Shown piece by piece: positions 1,060 to 16,563 of a stretch of DNA of 20,803 nucleotides. The stretch comes from Chrysophaeum taylorii (taxonomy: Eukaryota > Sar > Pelagophyceae > Pelagomonadales > Pelagomonadaceae). Every line of letters starts with the position of its first letter. The stretch's first letter is position 1. The translations under genes were made by a program, and so were the position numbers. The notes beneath the pieces were generated by a model. That model ran no database searches. It was not told where the DNA came from and worked only from the letters and a program-made list of their open reading frames with translations. The stretch is taken from positions 1 to 20,803 of the forward strand of contig JAQMWT010000207.1 in assembly GCA_029834535.1 (NCBI GenBank), written 5' to 3'.

Positions 1060-1640
1060 CGCCAAGACAGCTCCATGAGGAGCATGCGCCCTTCGATAAA
1101 AAGCTCATGCCAGGGGCACCCTCGCATTTCGAGATGCGCAACAACGAGCTACCAATTTTCACAACATCCACCATTCTAGTGATTCTCAAGCTATAAAAGC
1201 TGTTCAGGTTATTGCCAGTCCTGGACACCACCCATCTGACGTACCCTACCGTAAGTTCTGTGTGGATTGTACGATTCATAAAAAACGCTTTCCTCATCCA
1301 CACCACCTTATCAAGCAACCATCATTCGAAAAATTTTTCAACCTGGTGAAGCCTGGGCATGTGACGGTGGTTACGTATCTGTGCTCTTGGAATGGGGATC
1401 CTTTCGACATATCATTGTTTTCAAGTGCCCCACTTCTAAATTTCTGTTAGTGTACTTTTGTCGTAGCACTAACTCCAGCGAATTTTGTAACGCCCTTGAG
1501 TTTGTCCGCAATTTTTGCTCTTCTTATGTTCATGTACAACTAAAACAAATTTATTGTGATTCATTTAAACCTATTTATCTCAGCATGTTATTACACGCAT
1601 TTTACAACCCTTTCGTGTTGAACACGGTATTAATATGTCC
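1060..1640 (+). pseudogene. copia pre-integrase domain and front of integrase core, frameshifted
   Basis: One frame runs through about 1117-1450 and contains CVDCTIHKKRFPHP, matching the C-x2-C half of the H-H-C-C zinc finger at the N-terminus of copia integrase. A second frame (1381-1640) resembles the integrase core up to the second catalytic aspartate in QIYCDSF near 1555. The frame changes again near 1575, where the following ISQ/ITRILQPF-type sequence continues in the frame of the next segment. At least two frameshifts are therefore needed to read this part, and it is not a functional gene as sequenced. Assignment rests on motif spacing and order, not a database search. Confidence 0.65.
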
Positions 1641-2726
1641 GCGATCCCCCCTTACTTACGTGTCTTTAATCATGAAGTCGAAGCCGCTGTTTGTCACATA
1701 GCCACTGCCGCGTCTACACGACTCCGGCATATGCTTAATGTATCCTATAGAGGTCCCCCCCTCACAGATCCGGCCCCACACTACCCGTGGGCTGTTATAC
1801 ATGCTATCCAATCGTATAATCTCCTCCCTAACGTTTCTCTCGAACGTATTTATAATAAAGTCCTAAGCCCCCAACAAGTTTTGTTGGATCAATGTAATGT
1901 TCCCCAACAGGACTACCTCAAACCTTTAGGCTCTGTTTGTTACTTGCATTTGGAGCCCAATGAATTTCATAAATATGAACCTCGATGTCGTCCTTACATC
2001 TACTTATGTGGTGCTAATGTCATAAACCCATTAATAACACCCCACGTTAATCATTTAGCCGATGTTGTCCTTAATCCTGACAACGGCCAAGTCCGTGTTT
2101 CTTCTAAACTTGCCTTTCCTCATCTTATTTCTAAACCTCCTCCTGATTATGAACAACATCCACCTCCCGCACCTTCACCCGACATTCCCTTCTCTGTTCA
2201 CAGCACCCCCAATGATGCGGCGCAGAGGGGGAATGCTATGCCTACCGACACTGACCACGAGAGGGGGACACCCTCTCCTCCTGCCCATGCTCCTTCTCCC
2301 GTTCCCGCATGTGCTCCAGATGCTTCCGCACCCGCTGTTCCTGTCACCACACCTCCTACATCTGAAGTGTCCTCCAACACTTCGCCATTATTACTATCTT
2401 ATCGGTCTCTCTATTCCCAGGATGTCCTCTGTCTCACCCGTGGTCCTCATCACCCTCAACCTCGTCGCAAAACCAATCTCAAGGACGTTCTTACTCGTAT
2501 TGCTTCGCCAACTGTTGCCGCTTATAAACAAGCTGGTGGTACGCTTGCCGACTTCAAGTATGACCTCTCCAAGCAGTACATCACTTTCTGCGACCCCACC
2601 CTCCACTCCCTTCATATTGCTCACGGCATCCACTGGACGGCTATACCTCCAGAGGGGATTTACACCATCCCTTCATCACCATGTTCGCCAAGCGCCTTCA
2701 CAGTCCTCTTCAGTTATGTGTCATAG
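1635..2726 (+). pseudogene. copia integrase rear core and C-terminal region
   Basis: This 363-codon frame begins inside the integrase core. FNHEVEAAV holds the likely third catalytic acid, corresponding to the NGxxEAA pattern of copia integrases, about 35 residues after the aspartate in the previous segment. The region around PQQVLLDQ to VSSKLAF resembles the conserved copia integrase C-terminal stretch. A proline-rich low-complexity linker follows (about residues 175-255), then a segment ending at a stop inside the start of the reverse transcriptase frame, with a 46-base overlap. The frame change lies between integrase and reverse transcriptase, not at the gag-pol border, so decay is more likely than programmed frameshifting. 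The ATG at 1635 is internal to the domain and is not a real start. Confidence 0.7.
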
Positions 2727-4954
2727 GAGCCATAGCCATCCATCGCCTGATGCCACTCACGTTCATTTCTGCGACGACGTCAACCTTGCAGACCTTTCAC
2801 CTTCCTCAGCTCCGTTCATCCATTTCCGAACATGCTCACGCTTTTCAAGTTCCTCCCGCTCAATATGCTTATGCTTTGTTCACACCCCACTCCATTTTGG
2901 ATCATAATGACGCTTCTTATGGTGCCTCCGAGCCTCACCTCTCCGCCATCGAAGACTATATCACCGTGCAATCGCATTACATTGAGGCCCACCTTGGTGA
3001 TGCTCCTCTACTAGTTGTTCAACTTGTCGAAGATCCCGATCACGCTCACATTAACGATAATGTCGCCTCTTGCGCAATCACCCATCTTACGACGGCTCAC
3101 GACCCCAGCACTGTTGGTCCGGACGAATACAAGATTCCTGCCAAAGATATCAAAATTGATGAATATGAGTTGAACTGCCTCAAAGGTCTCTCAGACGCTG
3201 ATCGCAAAGCCCACATCTCCGCTATCTCCAAAGAGATTTTCGATATTGTTAAGTTTGGCTGCTTTAAACTCGCGTTGCCAATGGTCAACTCAAAGCCTAT
3301 TGACACCCGCCTCGTCCTACGTATAAAAACCAATGCTGCTGGTCAATATATTGAACATAAAGCACGCCTGGTCCTACGAGGATTCTTAGCCTCTCTGGGC
3401 ACCGATTTTTTCAACACATTCAGCCCTATGGCACAGCTTACTGGCATCCGTTGCGTTCTGGCGCTAGCAGCCCATCTGCGACTTCCCGTCTACCACGTCG
3501 ACGTACCTAACGCTTTTGTTCAAGCTCCCATCGACTCTCATGTTTATGTTAAACTGCCACAAGCCATTTGCCTTCTCGATCCCGAAGATACCAAATATCA
3601 AGGCCGTCGTCTCCCAAAACTACATAAATCTCTTTGTGGATTACGACAAAGTCCTGCCCTTTGGAATCAAACCACAAATAACTTCTTTGATTCTTTAGGC
3701 TATACACGCTTCCGAACAGATACGTGCATTTACGCTAAAGTCCAAGCTGACGCTACATTTTTAATTTGCACGCTCTCAGTAGATGACGCTGTCATCACTT
3801 GCACTTCGGAAACTCTACGTCGTGAATTCCAACAAGCCCTGAAAAAGGAATACTCAGTCGACACCTTTGAAGAAGTCCATACTCTCTTAGGCATGCGCAT
3901 CACGCGTACTACTGACGGGTCTATCTCACTGGACTGTCAAGCTAAACTTGATGCATTGTTCGAAGAGTACCCCATTTTAATGCAGTTACGTCCCACTTCT
4001 ACACCGATGTCACCATCAACCACGTATAAAACTGGAGAGCCATCTTCTGATATGGACAAGTTTATTCTTCATACCTTCTCCACCTTACTCGGCAAGCTTA
4101 CTTTAGTACAATTGGCCTGTCGCCCTGATCTATCCCAAAGCCTTAGTCGTTGCTCCCGAGGAATGCATAATCCAGCATTTCTACATGCTCAAGTACTAAC
4201 AGGAACGCTCCGCTACTTGCGCAAGCCCGAAAATCGCAATCTTCGACTCTGGTACTACTCTGGCTCTTCCGCTCTAACGGACCATCTTCGACTTCTTATC
4301 GGTAATCGCACTGACATGGCCACCATGTTGGATTACACTAAAGAACAAGTTAATTCAGGTAACTTTGATCCATTGGTCGCGTTCGTTGATGCCGATAACG
4401 CACCCTCTTATGAACAAGACCGCAAGTCTACAACTGGTTACGCCATCTTTTTGTTCGGTTCACTTATCACTTGGAAGTCTAAATTACAGCCTATCACGGC
4501 TACTTCTACGCATGAGAGTGAACTTATCGCCCTTAATATGTGTGCCGATGATGTGGTCTGGTTACGCAAATTGTTAACGGAAATGGCATTCGCTATAAAT
4601 CCTCACTACTATCTTCGCCAACCTGCAGGGAAAGATTTGTTACTAGATTATGATGCTCACGACAACCCCCTCCCATCGGACATGTCGTTCATACGTAACA
4701 GTCCTATACTTGGAGACTCTGCTTCTGCTATCCATCTATCAAATAATCCCGACAGTGCGACTAAGGCCAGCGCTATCAGCACACGCTGGTTCCGTATTCG
4801 CGACTACGTACAGTTAAAACGTATACGTCTACATCATGTTTCCGGTACTCAAAACATTGCTGATGGATTTACTAAACCCTTCGGAGCTCCGCTCTTCAGC
4901 AGATTAAGCACGTTACTTGGCTTACAACAACCCATAGTCCAACAATATGGTTGA
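2681..4954 (+). CDS. copia reverse transcriptase and RNase H
   Basis: A 757-codon uninterrupted frame. Reverse transcriptase occupies about residues 155-400: ARLVLRGF and TFSPMAQ match the copia RLVAKGF...TFSPVA signature, VYHVDVPNAFVQAPI near residue 273 carries the first catalytic aspartate, LCGLRQSPALWN matches SLYGLKQAPRAW, and TLSVDDAVI near 366 is the catalytic DD box with serine where tyrosine is usual. RNase H covers about 565-735: FVDADNA, the DRKSTTGY block, STHESELIAL (Glu), ILGDSASAIHL (Asp) and the terminal FTKPF. The usual KHID block reads SAIST, so the last acidic residue seems absent. Together these domains would copy the element's RNA into DNA in a cytoplasmic particle. The intact frame next to a broken integrase suggests fairly recent decay. 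The first roughly 150 residues are not recognisable. Confidence 0.88.
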   Translation: MFAKRLHSPLQLCVIGAIAIHRLMPLTFISATTSTLQTFHLPQLRSSISEHAHAFQVPPAQYAYALFTPHSILDHNDASYGASEPHLSAIEDYITVQSHYIEAHLGDAPLLVVQLVEDPDHAHINDNVASCAITHLTTAHDPSTVGPDEYKIPAKDIKIDEYELNCLKGLSDADRKAHISAISKEIFDIVKFGCFKLALPMVNSKPIDTRLVLRIKTNAAGQYIEHKARLVLRGFLASLGTDFFNTFSPMAQLTGIRCVLALAAHLRLPVYHVDVPNAFVQAPIDSHVYVKLPQAICLLDPEDTKYQGRRLPKLHKSLCGLRQSPALWNQTTNNFFDSLGYTRFRTDTCIYAKVQADATFLICTLSVDDAVITCTSETLRREFQQALKKEYSVDTFEEVHTLLGMRITRTTDGSISLDCQAKLDALFEEYPILMQLRPTSTPMSPSTTYKTGEPSSDMDKFILHTFSTLLGKLTLVQLACRPDLSQSLSRCSRGMHNPAFLHAQVLTGTLRYLRKPENRNLRLWYYSGSSALTDHLRLLIGNRTDMATMLDYTKEQVNSGNFDPLVAFVDADNAPSYEQDRKSTTGYAIFLFGSLITWKSKLQPITATSTHESELIALNMCADDVVWLRKLLTEMAFAINPHYYLRQPAGKDLLLDYDAHDNPLPSDMSFIRNSPILGDSASAIHLSNNPDSATKASAISTRWFRIRDYVQLKRIRLHHVSGTQNIADGFTKPFGAPLFSRLSTLLGLQQPIVQQYG

Positions 4955-10373: not shown

Positions 10374-10982
10374 TCAGCGACGCGCACACCAACAATTGGT
10401 GGGAGACCTCACGTCGGCCTCCAGCAGAATCTGTCGGATTTCCGCTGTTTTCGCAACCTGACGAGGCGTATCATACTTTTTCGCCTTCGCCTTGACGTCG
10501 GCGCCATTTGCGACCAAAAGCAGCACGCATTCCACGTGGCCGTTTTGAGACGCCGCGTGAGGTGGGGTGGTGCCGTCGTTGGGCCGCGCTTTGTCGACAT
10601 CGGCGCCCTTCTCGATCAAGAGCCGGACGCACTCGACCTGGCCGTTCTCAGAAGCCACGAGAAGCGGGGTCGCGCCGTCGTTGGTCCGCGCTTTGTCGAC
10701 ATCGGCGCCCTTCTCCATCAAGAGCCGCTCGCACTCGACGTGGCCGTTCTGAGACGTCATGTGAAGCGGGGTGGTGCCATCATTGGTCCATAATTTGTCG
10801 ACATTGGCACCCTTCTCGATCAAGAGCCGCAGGGACTCGACAAACCCAAACTGTGCAGCAGGATGCAATATGAGAATCTTCTCGTCGAACTGCACGTTTC
10901 GAAGCATCACGGAGAGAGCATCGGTGCGATTCAATCTCGAAGCAAGTGCCAACGCTGATTCGCCCAATGCCGACATGCAATC
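10374..10982 (-). pseudogene. Segment 9: C-terminal ankyrin repeat block
   Basis: About 200 codons of nearly uninterrupted ankyrin repeats ending at TGA by 10374. At least three canonical 34-residue units (TPLHMTSQNGHVECERLLME, ATPLLVASENGQVECVRLLI, TTPPHAASQNGHVECVLLLV) are flanked by weaker ones, and a short basic tail follows. Unit spacing in DNA is exactly 102 bp. The block would be the ligand- or partner-sensing end of the protein. Confidence 0.85.
10542..10847 (-). repeat. Three 102-bp tandem units within the ankyrin block
   Basis: TTTGTCGACAT and its surroundings recur at 102-bp spacing (about 10590, 10692 and 10794), with the units highly similar in nucleotide sequence, including third codon positions. 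That similarity shows recent unit duplication or gene conversion rather than old ankyrin repeats held alike by protein selection alone. Confidence 0.75.
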
Positions 10983-10983
10983 G

Positions 10984-11973
10984 TGCTCCTCGTTCGAGCA
11001 GCATACTCACAGCATGAATGCACGAATTAACGACTGCAAAATGGAGCGGTACACTTTCCGGAAAACGACCATTCGCGTCGATGGAAGCCGCTAGTGTCGC
11101 GGCGGCTCGCACTTGCCTTCGATGACACGCTTGTGCGAATGCGTACAAACGCACTTCGTCGTCCCAGTCTCCCTCCCCAGCAATCGTTTCTGATGCCTCA
11201 AAGGTGTTGACCGACTCAAGCACTTCAGGAACGATAGGATGAGCGGCGAGGTCCTCATCGCATCGTGGTGGCCAAAAGACACGAGCCATCTCAACTCTTT
11301 GGTCGGGTTGTACCAAGTGAGAGTAACCGAGATCGACTGGACTAGAATGAAACATATTCAGAGCGGAAAACCACGCGCCGGCGCGAAGCAAGAGTCGAGC
11401 ACACTCCGGCCTTCCAGACCGCGCAGCCGCATGCAGCACGCTATCTTTCGTCGCGGGATCGACAGGCGTGATGAGGTCGGCACCACGATCCAGACGTCCT
11501 GCCACGAGCGCAGTTACGCCTTCTGCGGCTGCGCGCCGTGCAAACGCGGCAACTCCTTCAACATTTCGCCGCACGCGTTCCACGGAGACGACTTGTGTTT
11601 CAGACCACGATCGTCGCTTGACACCGATTTTGCTACTCGTACCGAACTCGTCCAAGGAGACGACAGTACGTGGGACGTACGCCCAGATACCCTCCAAAAA
11701 TACTTCGACCGTCTCGCCAGGACGCACCGCGGGAATCTTCCGAGCGAGGGTGGCGAGCGCACGCTCGCGTTCACCCGGCTCCGCGAGCTGAAACGCAAAG
11801 AGCGCGGGTGATTGCCAGCACGGGTCGCCGAGGTCGAACGAGTCGCCAACAAGCAGGTTGTCAGGCCCAATGAAGAGCGCGACATAATATTCCTGGAACG
11901 TCAGGTGGAAAAAAGCAATCGAGTTGCTCCCGCGCGGTGCGAATGGAGGCAACAGCCCAGACCGCGCTAAGCT
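10984..11973 (-). pseudogene. Segment 8: NACHT winged-helix end, linker and ankyrin repeats
   Basis: The frame opens with ARSGLLPPF and FFHLTFQEYYVALFIG, the SGLL...F.H.TFQEY signature that closes NACHT domains. A region of about 100 residues without recognisable motifs follows, then an ankyrin repeat (DSVLHAAARSGRPECARLLL), a divergent stretch, and another repeat (VPLHFAVVNSCIHAVSMLLE). At about 10983 one extra base within the repeat loop ends the correct frame; the frame that continues (ORF end 10780) loses the ankyrin pattern. This order, switch then sensor repeats, is that of NLR proteins, which use leucine-rich repeats in animals and often ankyrin, TPR or WD repeats elsewhere. Confidence 0.78.
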
Positions 11974-11976
11974 CTA

Positions 11977-12850
11977 GACCGCCGCAGCCAAGCGGGGGGA
12001 CCCTAAGCCCTCGATGTCGCCACGTTGAAACAAGGTTCGTCGATCCTGGTGCGCCACGAGCGCAAGCCGCTCGAAGACCTCGCGCACTTCCGAACTCCCG
12101 CACTCCTGTAGAACATCACGCGCAAGTGTGAGCGTTCCGTCCTGTCGCATCGGTGCCACAGCGCGAGCCATGAACCTATCGTCCGCGATGCGAAACAAGT
12201 CGGAACGATCGCGAAGAACTGATGGCGTCTGCAATCCTCCAGTAGGAGACAACGCGAGCAACGCGAGCCGGAGGGCTAGAGGAGTCTCGACGAGGCTCGC
12301 AATGTCGGGAGTAATACCCGTAAGGGTCTCGACGCGTCCGCGATCGACTTGGGCAATGCTAAGGAAAGTAAAGCCGTGCGGCGCGAGATCGTCGATGTTT
12401 CTAGCCGCCGGACGCGAGGTGATGACAGTCAGAGCACAACCTTGGGCGTACTCGACAATCTTCTCTACGAGCGACGGTCGAGTTGTCGGCGCGACTTCGT
12501 CGAGGCCGTCGAGACAGAGTGGAAGGCGTCCGTCGATCCGCGCTGGTCGCAGGGCGTCGCTACCATCTCGAACATCGTTGATCACGCGGCCGACCCAGTC
12601 GCTCTCGGGATCGTCGATGCTTGAAAGAGAGATGGTCATGGGGAGCATGAGTTCCGACTCGCTTGATTCACCCGAAGCGCTGTGGAGTTGCTTATTGCAC
12701 GGCGCAACCACGACAGCACGCAGAATCCATCCCTTCCCCGAGCCCGCGTCACCCTCGATCACAACGTGACCCGTGCGCATCGCCGCCTCGACGGCTTCGC
12801 CGGTGTGCACGACGTCGGCGAGGGCTCCTCGGACGCTCGAATAATAATCC
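11977..12850 (-). pseudogene. Segment 7: NACHT NTPase domain
   Basis: In the frame of codon 12810-12808, VVIEGDAGSGKGWILR is the Walker A (P-loop), LPLCLDGLDEVAP is the NACHT-type Walker B (hhhhDGLDE), and ALTVITSRPAA is sensor 1. Together these identify a NACHT domain, the nucleotide-dependent switch of NLR and other STAND proteins. Helices before the stop, including TPLALRLALLALSP, fit the helical lid. Walker A ends GKG rather than GK[S/T], so the Mg-coordinating hydroxyl is missing. TAG at 11976-11974 interrupts the domain, and the expected next element (SGLL..., LTFQEYYVA) follows in the same frame. Confidence 0.85.
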
Positions 12851-13585
12851 GCCGTGGTGGAGCGGACGGCGGCACCTCCCGAAACTCGGTCTTAACGTCG
12901 CGTCGATGCTCTATTTTTGGCGGGAGTTCTCGCACACACTCAGATACCGATACGCGGTCGTTGGTGACGGGATCGTATGCCGAGTCCGCGTCGTCTTTGG
13001 CGGCCTCGAGGCAGGCGACGGCGCCCTTTTCCGCGCGCGGTGCGGGGAAGAGCTTAGCATCATACAGCCGTGCCTGGTGTACGACGTCGACAAACAACGA
13101 GTCCGAGGAATTGTGGCGATACGTTGCCTCAGCCTTGGCGAAAAGCACACCGCCGTGCTCAGCGTCGTGGCTTAAAGCCCGGTCGCACGCCAACGGTGCT
13201 TCTTCACAGCTGCCGGCGCGCAAGTGCGCGCACGCGATGAGCGAGCAACATTCTGCCACGTCGCCGCCATTTGCTGCCGCAGGGCACTCGAGGCTGCCCT
13301 GCGCGCAAGATCGATTTCGTTTAGGTCGACCACCGCTCGGCCAATGTTGAGCAGCGTCTCTGCAACATCCTCCTCCACAGGATGATGATGAGTCGTCGAC
13401 GCGGCGGGAACTTGCATAGCTTCGAGCAGAGCGGCACCGCATGTTGGTCTTTGGGTGATGTCGGCGGCGAGACACTGCCGAAGAAGAATGCTCGAGGCGG
13501 GAGGCGGGGCCAAGAGCATTCGACGCAATCGTGTTCGATCTCGTTTCCTAGGAAGCCACGGTAAAGCATCGTAAAGGCTGTTCGG
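12851..13585 (-). pseudogene. Segment 6: kinase C-lobe end and TPR-like helices
   Basis: Directly after the TGA, in the same frame, LLRQCLAADITQRPTCGAAL (about 13485-13426) is the kinase subdomain XI signature with its invariant arginine in QRP. Paired helices follow: VAETLLNIGRAVVDLNEIDL in this frame, then, after a frame change near 13270, AECCSLIACAHLRAGSCEEA and a further helix around GGVLFAKAEATYRH. Their spacing and Ala/Gly/Leu pattern resemble TPR repeats, which mediate protein contacts. A linker follows to about 12850, where the frame changes again just before the NACHT domain. The exact shift positions are approximate. Confidence 0.65.
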
Positions 13586-13588
13586 TCA

Positions 13589-14584
13589 CAATTTGAATAA
13601 CCCTGCACCGTCGAGCGTATTATCCTGAATGGAGAGCGAGTGCGTTTGTAACCAATCATCGACTTCGAGCCGCCCCCAGCTCGTGGTAGGTGGCTGCAAC
13701 GTGACGATACTCTCAAGCGCCGTCCGCAATCCCGGAAACGGTTCCTCGTCAGCATGGTACAAGAGCAGCGTGACGACGCCAAACGCCCAGATGTCAGTCT
13801 CGGCAGGAGAAACACTCCGCGCGACCCCGCGAGCTCGACCCGACGATATGTCGAGTGCCGCGACTACTTCGGGGGACGCGTATGTCGGTGTGCAACCCTC
13901 AAGCGGCGCCCGGAGCAGCGTGCCGACTCCATCGCCGTGGCGCGCGAGACCAAAATCACCCAGATAGGCGCGACCCTCGGTGTCGACTAATATGTTTTCG
14001 AGCTTGACGTCTTGATGCAGCACGCCTCGCGAGTGACAAAACGCAAGCGCTGACGCCAGCTGCGGAAGTATTGAGACGATAGACGCGCGCACGACACGCG
14101 CGTCTCCGTCGTCGTGAAGATCGCCGCTCGAGACGAGTCGCTCCAAGTCGCGGGCCCCGTCGACGAGCGTCATGAAGAGCAAGAATTCCGCATTACTGCT
14201 TGACACAGCGCAGTAGTGCAGCGAAACGATGTGAGGGTGCGTGCCGGGCTCGGCCATGAGCAAAGCCTCGCGACAGAGTCGAATCTCTTCCTCGATATTA
14301 TGATTCCTCGCGGCGCCCGAGGCCCCACGGAGCTTGTCTGAGCTGACGCATTTCATCGCAAACGGCGCCGCCACTCGAGTCGTCGATCGAACGACGTAGA
14401 CTTCGCCATAACCCCCACGCGCGATGAAGTCATCGACTTTAAATACCGGCCGCCCCGTGGTAGGCAAGCGAACGAGGTGCCCCACGCTGAGGTTGCCGAC
14501 GCCGAGAGAACGCTGCGGTTTCAAGTGATTCATGGGAAGAGGATCAACGATGTCGTTGTGTTCGGCCGAATACAGCTCGTGCAT
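13589..14584 (-). pseudogene. Segment 5: protein kinase domain, non-RD type
   Basis: 332 codons from ATG 14584. The glycine loop ARGGYGEVY (55-63), the beta-3 lysine in FAMKCV (K78), a helix-C glutamate near E106, the catalytic loop LHQDVKLEN (H190, Q191, D192, K194, N197), GDFGLAR (D210) and the YASPE activation-segment end (237-239) with DIWAFG (D264) are all present. It should therefore be catalytically capable, phosphorylating Ser/Thr by type. HQD replaces HRD, a non-RD arrangement known from many innate-immune kinases such as plant pattern-recognition receptors. The C-lobe is cut by TGA at 13588-13586; the same frame then continues with the end of the kinase fold. In this reading the ATG is internal to a longer protein. 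Confidence 0.88.
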
Positions 14585-14597
14585 GCCCAAGAGGTAA

Positions 14598-14959
14598 CTT
14601 AACTAAACTAACTTCAGACCTCTCCCGAGCATGGGAGCCAGGCCGGACCGACAGGAGCCAGTCCGGAATCACGGGCCTGTAGACGAGGAGCGCCGAAAGG
14701 TCGGTCGGCGGAGAGTGACCATCAAGCTTGTCGCCATGCGACGAGGAGACCGCGATGTGACTGACAACCAACTCGTCGACAACCTTCCGTCTTCGCCCCC
14801 CGGCCTTACCCCGTCCCACTGCGAACGTTCCGGGTGCCAACCGGCCCGCCCGGGAGGCGAATAGGTGCCAACCTACGCCGGGAGGGCGGATGCCCTCGCA
14901 AGGCTCAGGATTCATGAGGCACCGTCCTCCATCGCAACCGCAGTCGGCGATCAGGGTAA
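14598..14959 (-). mobile_element. SINE-like copy A inside the large gene
   Basis: The minus strand carries the same sequence of about 360 bp as copies C and D (from TTACCCTGATCGCC through the CCTGAGCCTTGCGAGGGCAT block to CATGCTCGGGAGAGGTCTGA). It ends in a decayed tail, AGTTAGTTTAGTTAAGTTA. TTACC flanks the copy on both sides (14955-14959 and 14593-14597), but TTACC is also the element's own 5' end, so a true target duplication is not established. Removing the copy at TTACC joins the ankyrin-linker frame directly to the kinase frame. It lies in the same orientation as the gene. The short frames it contains (for example 14544-14915) are not genes. Confidence 0.85.
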
Positions 14960-15410
14960 GGGTTTGTCAGCAGCAACGGCGTCTTTTTCTTCTGTAACAG
15001 CTTGATCTGTGGGAAATCCGCTATACTTGACATCACGACGTCGCCCGAACTTTTCTGATCGCGTTGTTCTTCGGTGATTGGGGGTTCCAGACGCACGCTT
15101 GCGGTCCGACCCAGGCCAACGCACACGGAGACTCGCCGAAGAGTAATCATCGGGACGCCGCTAGTATTCATCGACATTTGTTTGGATAGTCGTCGTGCCC
15201 CACGCTCCTCCAAGAACTTCACGACGTCGGTGTGGACTCCACAAAGAGCAAAGTCGATGGCAGTTTCGTCGCCGTGGTCGTCATCGTACTCGGCGTTCAC
15301 ATCTGCTTTACCGACGTCAACGAGACAAACGACGACGTCGAGGAACCCTTCGTAGCTGGCGGCGCGCATCAAGGGTGTCCGGTCGCTGCGGTCCATGGCG
15401 TTGACATGAC
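14960..15410 (-). pseudogene. Segment 4: ankyrin repeats and linker up to the SINE insertion
   Basis: DRSDRTPLMRAASYEGFLDV is an ankyrin repeat whose first strand overlaps the frame break, followed by an atypical repeat (DETAIDFALCGVHTDVVKFL) with an acidic loop. A low-complexity linker of about 75 residues, rich in Ser, Val, Arg and Lys, runs to about 14960, where the SINE-like sequence begins in the sequence encoding NPY. The frame formally continues into the SINE for about 18 codons before stopping at 14905; those codons are not part of the gene. Confidence 0.75.
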
Positions 15411-15875
15411 ACCGCAGCGCACTAGCAGGTGCCAGACCACGTTGACGTGGCCGTGAGCAGCGGCGCGATGCAACGGCGACCGCTGGCGCGCGTCGGCGAT
15501 GGTGAAGTCACCGTTCATGTTTTTCAGCCTCCTGATGGCATTTAAGTTGCCGCGCATCGCTGAGACGTGAAGCGCCGAGAGCGCCCAACAGGCGCCGCCG
15601 ACGTCGGACAACTTCTCGTGGATTATATGCGGCGTCTTCTCTAGGAGTGCTTCGATCGTCTTGGTATCGTCAGCGAAGCTTTCCACTAGCAGCGGCAAGA
15701 CGAGGCCTTTTTCGTACACATCGAGCGAGAATGTTTTGGCAATCACCTCGAACACCTTCTCGCGGGCATTATGAACAGCAGCGTCATCGAAGCGTTCAAT
15801 GGCGCGCTTCAACAGGGCGTTTTGTTCTTTGAGCATAAAATAGTTCTCCTTCTCGAGCACGACGAGCTCGTCCAT
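15411..15875 (-). pseudogene. Segment 3: coiled coil and first ankyrin repeats
   Basis: Residues 1-40 (MDELVVLEKENYFMLKEQNA and on) continue the heptad pattern of segment 2. Residues about 45-95 are helical, and from about 95 two ankyrin repeats are visible: ALSALHVSAMRGNLNAIRRL and RSPLHRAAAHGHVNVVWHLL, matching the xTPLHxAAxxGHxxVVxxLL consensus. The frame breaks near 15410 in the loop after the second repeat, where one base seems missing and the next repeat begins in another frame. Ankyrin repeats bind protein partners and commonly serve as the sensing surface. Confidence 0.75.
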
Positions 15876-16242
15876 TTATTTTCTGGTGCAGCCCCACGAG
15901 CGCCGTCGTGGTCTCCTCTGGGTCAACGCCGCCTTCCTTGGCGACGTCCTCGAGCGCCCTTTCGTCTTTGTCGAGGCGCTCGTCCACGTACTTCTCGAGC
16001 GCCTCCTCGAGCCTGTACGTAATAGCTCGTAGCAAGCCCTCAACTTGGGCGTCTCTCGCAAGGCCGTACGCATTCGTCAGGAAGTCAAGCTTATCGCGGA
16101 TCTCACCGTCGAGGCGCGAGAGCGTCCCCGCGTACTTGCGCAGCTTCCAGAATCGTTTGAAGAAGCCGGGCTCGCCGAACTTTTCAACGGCCGTCTTGAA
16201 TTCCTCGAGCAACTGCGCGATGTCTGCCATCGCCGCGCGCAC
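15876..16242 (-). pseudogene. Segment 2: end of the helical bundle, brace and coiled coil
   Basis: This is the same frame as segment 1, with an ATG at 16230. MADIAQLLEEFKTAVEKF is an amphipathic helix, followed by a short turn and FFKRFWKLRKYAGTLSRLD, closely resembling the helix-4 and brace region of MLKL N-terminal domains, where a KRF..RKY-type stretch precedes a LNxRL helix. Further helices with alternating Glu/Lys/Leu (YRLEEALEKYVDERLDKDER) look like a coiled coil. The coding frame is lost at AAATAAATGG (15880-15872), where one extra base moves the protein into the frame of segment 3. A separate small gene starting at 16230 is the alternative, but that would split one helical domain across two proteins. 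Confidence 0.6.
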
Positions 16243-16251
16243 CTATCTCGT

Positions 16252-16563
16252 TCATTCAGGGGATAAGTCGCCGACGCGACGCGCGAGGAGTCGGAGGAAC
16301 TCGAGGACATCCAGGACGCGGCGACCGGCCTGTACCACGTCATCAGCCTTGTCCTTGTATTTTCGGACGTCCAGAAAGATCAACCTCGCCATGCCGCATG
16401 CCCCACTGATGAGTGGAATTGCCGTTCCAATTGTCGAAATGGTCGTAATGATGTCGAGCCCGCTGTCGACGAGAGCGTCCACTCGCTCAACCTCCTCTCT
16501 CTTGGGGTCCGTCTGCTCGATCGCCGCCTTCATCTTCTCCTTCGTCCGCTCGATCGCCGTCAT
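16252..16563 (-). pseudogene. Segment 1: helical N-terminus, MLKL/HeLo-like bundle (first part)
   Basis: 103 codons from ATG 16563. After a charged leader, residues about 30-60 form a hydrophobic Gly/Ala/Ile-rich helix (IITTISTIGTAIPLISGA). A basic-acidic helix DVRKYKDKADDVVQAGRRVL and a leucine-rich helix follow. This pattern of a hydrophobic helix 1 then amphipathic helices resembles the four-helix bundle shared by MLKL, fungal HeLo and plant RPW8-type domains, which permeabilise membranes when released. Resemblance is by pattern only. The frame ends at TGA 16254, but the same frame continues after TGA, two codons and TAG into segment 2 with no length gap in the predicted helix. Confidence 0.55.

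Follow-up and report, generated by a model that had tools for sequence, protein, structure and literature searches.

Can a single algal protein carry all the parts of a necroptosis-like receptor, from recognition surface to executor? The question is raised by a locus in the pelagophyte alga Chrysophaeum taylorii (genome 70.8 Mb), where a stretch of 20,803 bases, the entire contig C207 and hereafter the window, encodes on its minus strand, from 16563 to 10374, a helical bundle, ankyrin repeats, a kinase, TPR-type helices, a NACHT domain and a second ankyrin block (Table 1). The original prediction took these six domains for one continuous chain. We find that they do lie colinear on the minus strand in the order listed, as judged from profile matches (those to MLKL_N and NACHT being convincing through paralogues), but that the window gene is split into about ten pieces; intact paralogues elsewhere in the genome join the same parts in one open frame. 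On balance it seems probable that the family consists of lineage-specific all-in-one NLR-like receptors, built from an ankyrin sensor, a NACHT switch, a (pseudo)kinase gate and a HeLo/MLKL-like executor, of which the window holds a dead copy.

A dead copy and its intact paralogues

Genome searches that took the kinase, the bundle and the NACHT region as queries gathered 14 family loci (the window, C324, C534, C529, C538, C309, C27, C366, C551, C73, C358, C437, C74 and C489); C90 holds a fragment besides. In five of these loci a single frame runs uninterrupted through all six parts, with a full bundle in C309 (3406 residues), C27 (2699 residues) and C73 (2339 residues) and a shortened one in C538 (3144 residues) and C74 (1838 residues, 1621 of them read); of the C74 kinase only a remnant is left, with no match in Pfam. 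The predicted order, bundle-ankyrin-kinase-TPR-NACHT-ankyrin, is thus found joined in intact homologues, in the single open frames of C309, C27 and C73. Three further loci are uninterrupted and lack the bundle (C324, 3017 residues; C437, 2444; C489, 1685, its kinase degenerate too), and six are broken: C534 by a frameshift in the NACHT region, C529 by a single in-frame stop that separates ankyrin from kinase, and C366, C551, C358 and the window. The receptors are giant and apparently intronless. At least four members have public gene models (P0001, P0008, P0011 and P0012); in P0008 (CTAYLR_005375) one deposited protein extends from the bundle through ankyrin, kinase and TPR to the NACHT (25.0 bits for NACHT, under cut-off), and the deposited annotation of the window contig runs only from the kinase interior to the NACHT (P0011, 642 residues). 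The ratio of nonsynonymous to synonymous substitution rates (dN/dS) was calculated for pairs of five loci over the bundle and of nine loci each over the kinase and NACHT, window included, and spans 0.15-0.59 across the pairs with a value (two pairs gave no dS); by these ratios all three segments are under purifying selection.

Frame-tolerant alignment of the window to three paralogue proteins, each of which spans a different part, so that not all lesions are visible in each, reveals that the frame is shifted in six places (near 15882-15840, 15407, 15084-15021, 13294, 12878-12863 and 10974-10965; five to six per paralogue) and interrupted by four in-frame stops (about 16254, 16245, 13588 and 11976). 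An extra shift against C534, at 12090, coincides with the break in the C534 frame. Inserted sequence of 358 bases or more, missing from the three aligned paralogues, separates the first ankyrins from the kinase; it is a young, high-copy repeat present in at least 41 further genome places at 98-99% identity (1740 first-look candidates, 40 scored). With these stops, shifts and inserted repeat the window does not encode the single chain ascribed to it: the gene is a pseudogene, and therefore no working receptor. Relative to C324 and C534 it shows a synonymous divergence (dS) of 0.21-0.33 over kinase plus NACHT and a dN/dS of 0.34-0.43, and such divergence with a still-low ratio is what fairly recent death would leave. 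Its kinase is 52-81% identical to the eleven closest loci, and its NACHT region 82% identical to that of C324 over about 490 residues.

A gene in about ten pieces might also arise if adjacent but distinct genes, or a frame that sequencing errors had disrupted, were read as one protein; in C529, too, an in-frame stop parts bundle and ankyrins from the kinase, and the 71-Mb assembly includes Nanopore reads alongside Illumina and PacBio reads (PMC10366177; here and below, statements on the literature draw on parts of the cited texts). We hold such an artefact to be highly improbable, as six parts in one uninterrupted frame in five paralogues already contradict it for the family. Moreover, the usual long-read errors are indels, unlike four in-frame stops and the insertion of a genome-wide repeat.

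Table 1. Features encoded by the window, in order from the N-terminal end of the broken receptor gene.
Feature	Position	Strand	Remarks
HeLo/MLKL_N-like helical bundle, extra N-terminal helix	15877..16563	-	Two in-frame stops inside
First ankyrin block	15025..15875	-	Ank_2 E 1.9e-9 and 1.9e-6 in two pieces; frameshifts near 15882-15840, 15407, 15084-15021
Inserted high-copy genomic repeat, outside the receptor	14606..14963	-	Could extend a few bases past 14606 (query end)
Ser/Thr kinase domain	13589..14593	-	Pkinase E 4.4e-27; keeps Lys, HxD Asp and DFG Asp; in-frame stop after
TPR-type helices	13116..13354	-	Crossed by a frameshift near 13294
NACHT NTPase and C-terminal winged-helix-type end ('HLTFQEYYVA')	11875..12861	-	NACHT E 6e-4, under cut-off; in-frame stop near 11976
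Second ankyrin block	10374..11460	-	Ank_2 E 1.7e-7 and 9.4e-62 (latter in the 11006-10374 piece); frameshift near 10974-10965; ends in 102-bp tandem array

On the plus strand, the window also carries Copia-type retrotransposon remnants at 1635-4954 (RVT_2 E 8e-39 in a 757-residue frame; upstream of it, a retroviral SH3-like match stays below threshold). As for the inserted repeat, introners are discussed in excerpts of the literature that also name Aureococcus; by eye, there is no GT at the 5' edge of the repeat on the gene strand.

Bundle, proposed (pseudo)kinase gate and NACHT switch

The bundle was assessed against the Pfam cut-off of 27 bits for MLKL_N (PF22215), which one of nine members exceeds (C309, 28.9 bits); five of the nine match at E≤1, and the window bundle falls under the cut-off at 20.7 bits, with an E of 0.086 for the window piece alone. 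RPW8, which we take to be a plant immunity bundle family, matches two of nine bundles, with a best E of 0.002. A predicted bundle model of modest quality aligns with the MLKL and NRG1/NRC2 bundles, and at least as well with unrelated bundles, and Foldseek with this model returns no match at E≤0.001. Searched against the PDB, a profile of the nine bundles does not retrieve MLKL, the sole match being RSM22 (E 0.1), nor does the window bundle match any of the PADLOC models. The MLKL/HeLo-type N-terminus originally proposed is thus favored by profile, with C309 over cut-off, at modest confidence, and the model agrees with this assignment but does not decide it.

The kinase was compared by residue in 13 of the 14 loci (C358, left out of the alignment, has kinase matches in the genome search). 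The Lys, HxD Asp and DFG Asp positions, which we take to fill the catalytic roles, are all kept in five (the window, C324, C534, C529 and C366), and at least one is missing in eight: the DFG Asp in C538 and C309, the Lys in C551 and both in C27, C73 and C437, with C74 and C489 degenerate. None of the five uninterrupted six-part members has all three residues, and only C324 does among the eight uninterrupted members. Catalytic state differs between C309 and C529, which are sisters in a NACHT tree of 11 loci (support 100/99). In a search of the PDB with a kinase profile, CDKs and RSK make up the best 60 of 275 matches, and the domain has a generic look; an identity with RIPK3 or MLKL was considered and finds no support, as no RIPK or MLKL likeness appears in these best 60. 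'RIPK3 plus MLKL in one chain', the likeness drawn in the original prediction, is therefore overstated, both for this reason and because one or more catalytic residues are missing in all five six-part frames; a pseudokinase gate is the safer reading. In PADLOC, the kinase matches many defense-kinase models (PD-T4-6, mad6) and the ankyrins match other models, all of which we take to be generic.

These data bear on two alternatives. In the first, the helical region is a docking or oligomerization domain and no membrane executor, with output through partner proteins or, in catalytically complete copies, through the kinase. The modest bundle evidence is compatible with this, as are the uninterrupted bundle-less members C324, C437 and C489 and the catalytic residues kept in five of 13 kinases; set against it are the MLKL_N match over cut-off and the RPW8 matches and, for output through the kinase, the incomplete sites of all five uninterrupted six-part members and, C324 excepted, of the other uninterrupted ones. 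We consider docking unlikely, if a serious contender. In the second, the kinase is an integrated decoy, a bait for kinase-targeting pathogen proteins within an otherwise ordinary HeLo-NACHT-ankyrin receptor, a role that degenerate catalytic sites would suit and in which the integrated kinases of plant and fungal NLRs have been read (PMC12258605). This seems to us distinctly improbable, given that the kinase is central, between bundle and NACHT, persists at least as a remnant in all 13 aligned loci, with kinase matches in C358 as well, and shows a dN/dS of 0.21-0.43 across pairs of nine loci. A HeLo/MLKL-like executor behind a (pseudo)kinase gate remains the reading that we prefer.

The TPR and NACHT assignments draw mainly on the paralogues. 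A paralogue profile of the TPR region retrieves an engineered TPR protein from the PDB (E 5.7e-14, best stretch profile positions 76-162), TPR_2 reaches 27.7 bits in C74 (cut-off 27), and TPR_16 has an E of 3.5e-4 in C309, under its cut-off. NACHT (PF05729, cut-off 26.7 bits) reaches 30.8 bits in C324 taken by itself and E≤0.1 in eight of nine members, with 30.0 bits in the whole C27 protein and 20.1 bits (E 6e-4) in the window piece alone. A NACHT profile finds nothing convincing in the PDB (best thymidylate kinase, E 0.015; NLRC4, E 0.82), and the NACHT structure model, with a predicted local distance difference test score of 34, was too poor for use. The Walker A motif has Ser or Thr after its Lys, and the Walker B motif follows the pattern hhhhDGLDE. 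The latter reads LDGLDE in six of nine aligned members and the window, with C27, C437 and C74 deviating. Walker A reads GKG in the window and in six of nine aligned members, the other three having GKT (C437, C74) or GKS (C489); because of this GKG, ATP hydrolysis may be impaired. GKG is perhaps a derived change in the switch, the divergent C74, C437 and C489 keeping Thr or Ser.

The N-terminal parts vary among the members. C324 lacks the bundle though its sister C534 has one (NACHT tree support 99/97). Besides an LRR match that passes its cut-off, C324 has a PNP_UDP-like region just short of its own (25.0 bits, cut-off 25.1); a 400-residue module common to C324 and C309 at 28% identity is followed by a shared linker. 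The first 108 residues of C324 match MBF2 at 30.1 bits (cut-off 25), surprising for an alga, and a separate bundle at C324:98784-99458, 64% identical to the C529 bundle, lies in a 1239-residue frame 15 kb from the C324 gene with no kinase match there and stands outside the 14-locus count. We rejected a diadenylate cyclase (DAC/DisA) as the identity of the first 246 residues of C309, where PF02457 matches only at E 0.16, far under cut-off. A long frame directly downstream of the C27 receptor (from 8972) resembles, by eye, a protein of adenylation or nonribosomal peptide synthetase type. Outside the family, MLKL_N matches of 63-67 bits occur in proteins from C565, C25, C521, C309:112598 and C8, a wider HeLo/MLKL-like repertoire in the alga, and a C359 protein combines an NPHP3_N-type NTPase (E 1.9e-17) and WD40 with a sub-threshold MLKL_N match in front (25.7 bits), recalling fungal HeLo-NLRs.

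The terminal ankyrin array

Ankyrins follow the NACHT in each of the six members of which all or almost all was scanned (C324, C538, C309, C27, C74 and C73). The terminal array is a 102-bp tandem repeat; it counts 18.7 copies in C309 up to where the stretch ends (89% match), 15.4 in C534 (90%), 36.8 in C538 (69%) and 3.4 in the window (82%) (Tandem Repeats Finder). In amino acids, its repeats have a mean identity of 76-82% in the four arrays of greatest uniformity and of 55-68% in the remaining three. Ankyrin positions 2, 3, 5, 13, 14 and 33 are those randomized in designed ankyrin binders, and we tested these exposed, target-facing positions in seven arrays, related to each other and in three cases from loci broken elsewhere (C534, C366 and C529). 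They are more variable than the rest in all seven (permutation p 0.005-0.041, uncorrected), and this entropy difference is present in all seven with both other repeat filters. With a Gly-anchored filter, the ratio of nonsynonymous to synonymous differences (pN/pS) is higher at target-facing positions in each array (0.50-1.49, compared to 0.41-0.72 elsewhere); a looser filter gives no such excess (0.65-0.97 compared to 0.61-1.14; lower in four arrays, equal in one and higher in two). The Gly-anchored filter was chosen after the result of the looser one, which was judged to have let in out-of-register windows (repeat counts 11-49 versus 6-34). Ratios near 1 would fit either relaxed or diversifying change, with positive selection unproven. 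The terminal ankyrins behave as a recognition surface would. Ankyrins of Podospora NLRs are reported to show high internal repeat conservation, with selection mostly on the concave face (PMC4986451).

A probable all-in-one receptor with an inserted (pseudo)kinase

Known families keep these parts less separate than the original prediction supposed, as some fungal NLRs carry an N-terminal HeLo ('all-in-one'), some HELL domains accompany (pseudo)kinases (PMC12881547), and a kinase is joined to a STAND-type NTPase in P0005-P0007. The fungal all-in-one NLRs resemble the family in their N-terminal-side bundle, mid NACHT and end ankyrins, with near-identical repeats that vary on the binding face (PMC12881547, PMC9815663, PMC4986451), but in the family ankyrins, a (pseudo)kinase and TPRs separate bundle and NACHT, and its host is a stramenopile alga. 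Its arrays, at 55-82% amino acid identity, also fall below the 85% threshold for highly conserved repeats in fungal NLRs (PMC4986451), with a DNA match of 89-90% in C309 and C534. HELL proteins share the bundle and (pseudo)kinase, in a source sentence that mentions no NACHT, and HeLo-NLRs and HELL-kinase proteins are treated apart (PMC12881547). Kinase-bearing NLRs are rare in Sordariales (12, nine with a C-terminal kinase; PMC12258605), and PKinase and HeLo are both among the listed N-terminal domains of fungal NLRs (PMC4986451); kinase-bearing fungal and plant NLRs are alike in having a kinase in the NLR chain, which in the family is central and family-wide (PMC12258605, PMC4986451).

Two comparisons lie further from NLRs. 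Like animal and plant MLKL, the family has a bundle and then a same-chain kinase domain, often catalytically incomplete. MLKL is defined, however, by a bundle followed directly by a brace and pseudokinase; here bundle and kinase are kept apart by an ankyrin block (window, C309, C27, C73, C538, C534 and C74), the kinase is CDK/RSK-like within the best 60 of 275 PDB matches, and a NACHT and ankyrin sensor is added. The bacterial-type P0005-P0007 combine a kinase with a STAND-type NTPase (AAA_16/nSTAND1) in one protein, by precomputed Pfam lists, but have WD40 in place of ankyrins, and neither MLKL_N nor NACHT is among the domains that these lists show.

Protein homologue searches (7, 1 and 24 rows) scored only length-limited candidates with shared short exact words, in two of the searches only the best 8000. 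Among their matches, Pfam NACHT and kinase occur together only in C. taylorii (P0001, P0008); others include P0005-P0007, Anopheles P0002 (NPHP3_N-type NTPase and ankyrins) and ankyrin proteins such as P0013 (495 bits) and SHANK3. A viral scan gave 4 loci and a prokaryote scan 17, most matching the NACHT-region end only. Within the limits of these protein searches, the joined order was found in no other species, nor is it named in any title or abstract found in the open-licence literature on this architecture or on algal NLRs; the word 'ankyrin' is absent from the main text of the C. taylorii genome paper, as far as the portion at hand extends (PMC10366177). Because HeLo-NLRs and HELL-kinase proteins are treated apart in the texts cited, kinase-bearing NLRs of Sordariales are rare and these searches gave the NACHT/kinase pairing in C. 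taylorii alone, we regard the family as an all-in-one NLR with an inserted (pseudo)kinase, a new combination in that we did not find it described.

From the architecture observed in the paralogues we infer how an intact member would act. Once the C-terminal ankyrin array had bound its ligand, a non-self or danger signal, the NACHT would be able to oligomerize, with the TPRs and inner ankyrins as contacts; oligomerization would gather the (pseudo)kinases and set free the HeLo/MLKL-like bundle at the N-terminus, whose attack on membranes would then be lethal to the cell. Of the self-contained necroptosis-like receptor first proposed, the joined architecture stands in the paralogues and falls in the window, where the gene is dead; pore formation and cell death are conjectural. 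Tentatively, and as an idea that we find plausible but somewhat short of probable, the family may be a one-chain necroptosis-like immune or self/non-self receptor, with a fast-evolving ankyrin sensor, a NACHT switch, a (pseudo)kinase gate and an MLKL-like executor, expanded only in this algal lineage, and with copies that die, lose the executor or gain other N-terminal modules.

If this is true, the logic of necroptosis (sensor, oligomerizer, kinase gate and executor), which is split over several proteins in animals and many fungi, would be pre-assembled in one gene, offering a compact system for testing (pseudo)kinase gating of an MLKL-type bundle. It would also document NLR-type receptors in pelagophytes, bloom-forming algae whose relative Aureococcus is, according to literature excerpts, infected by a giant virus.

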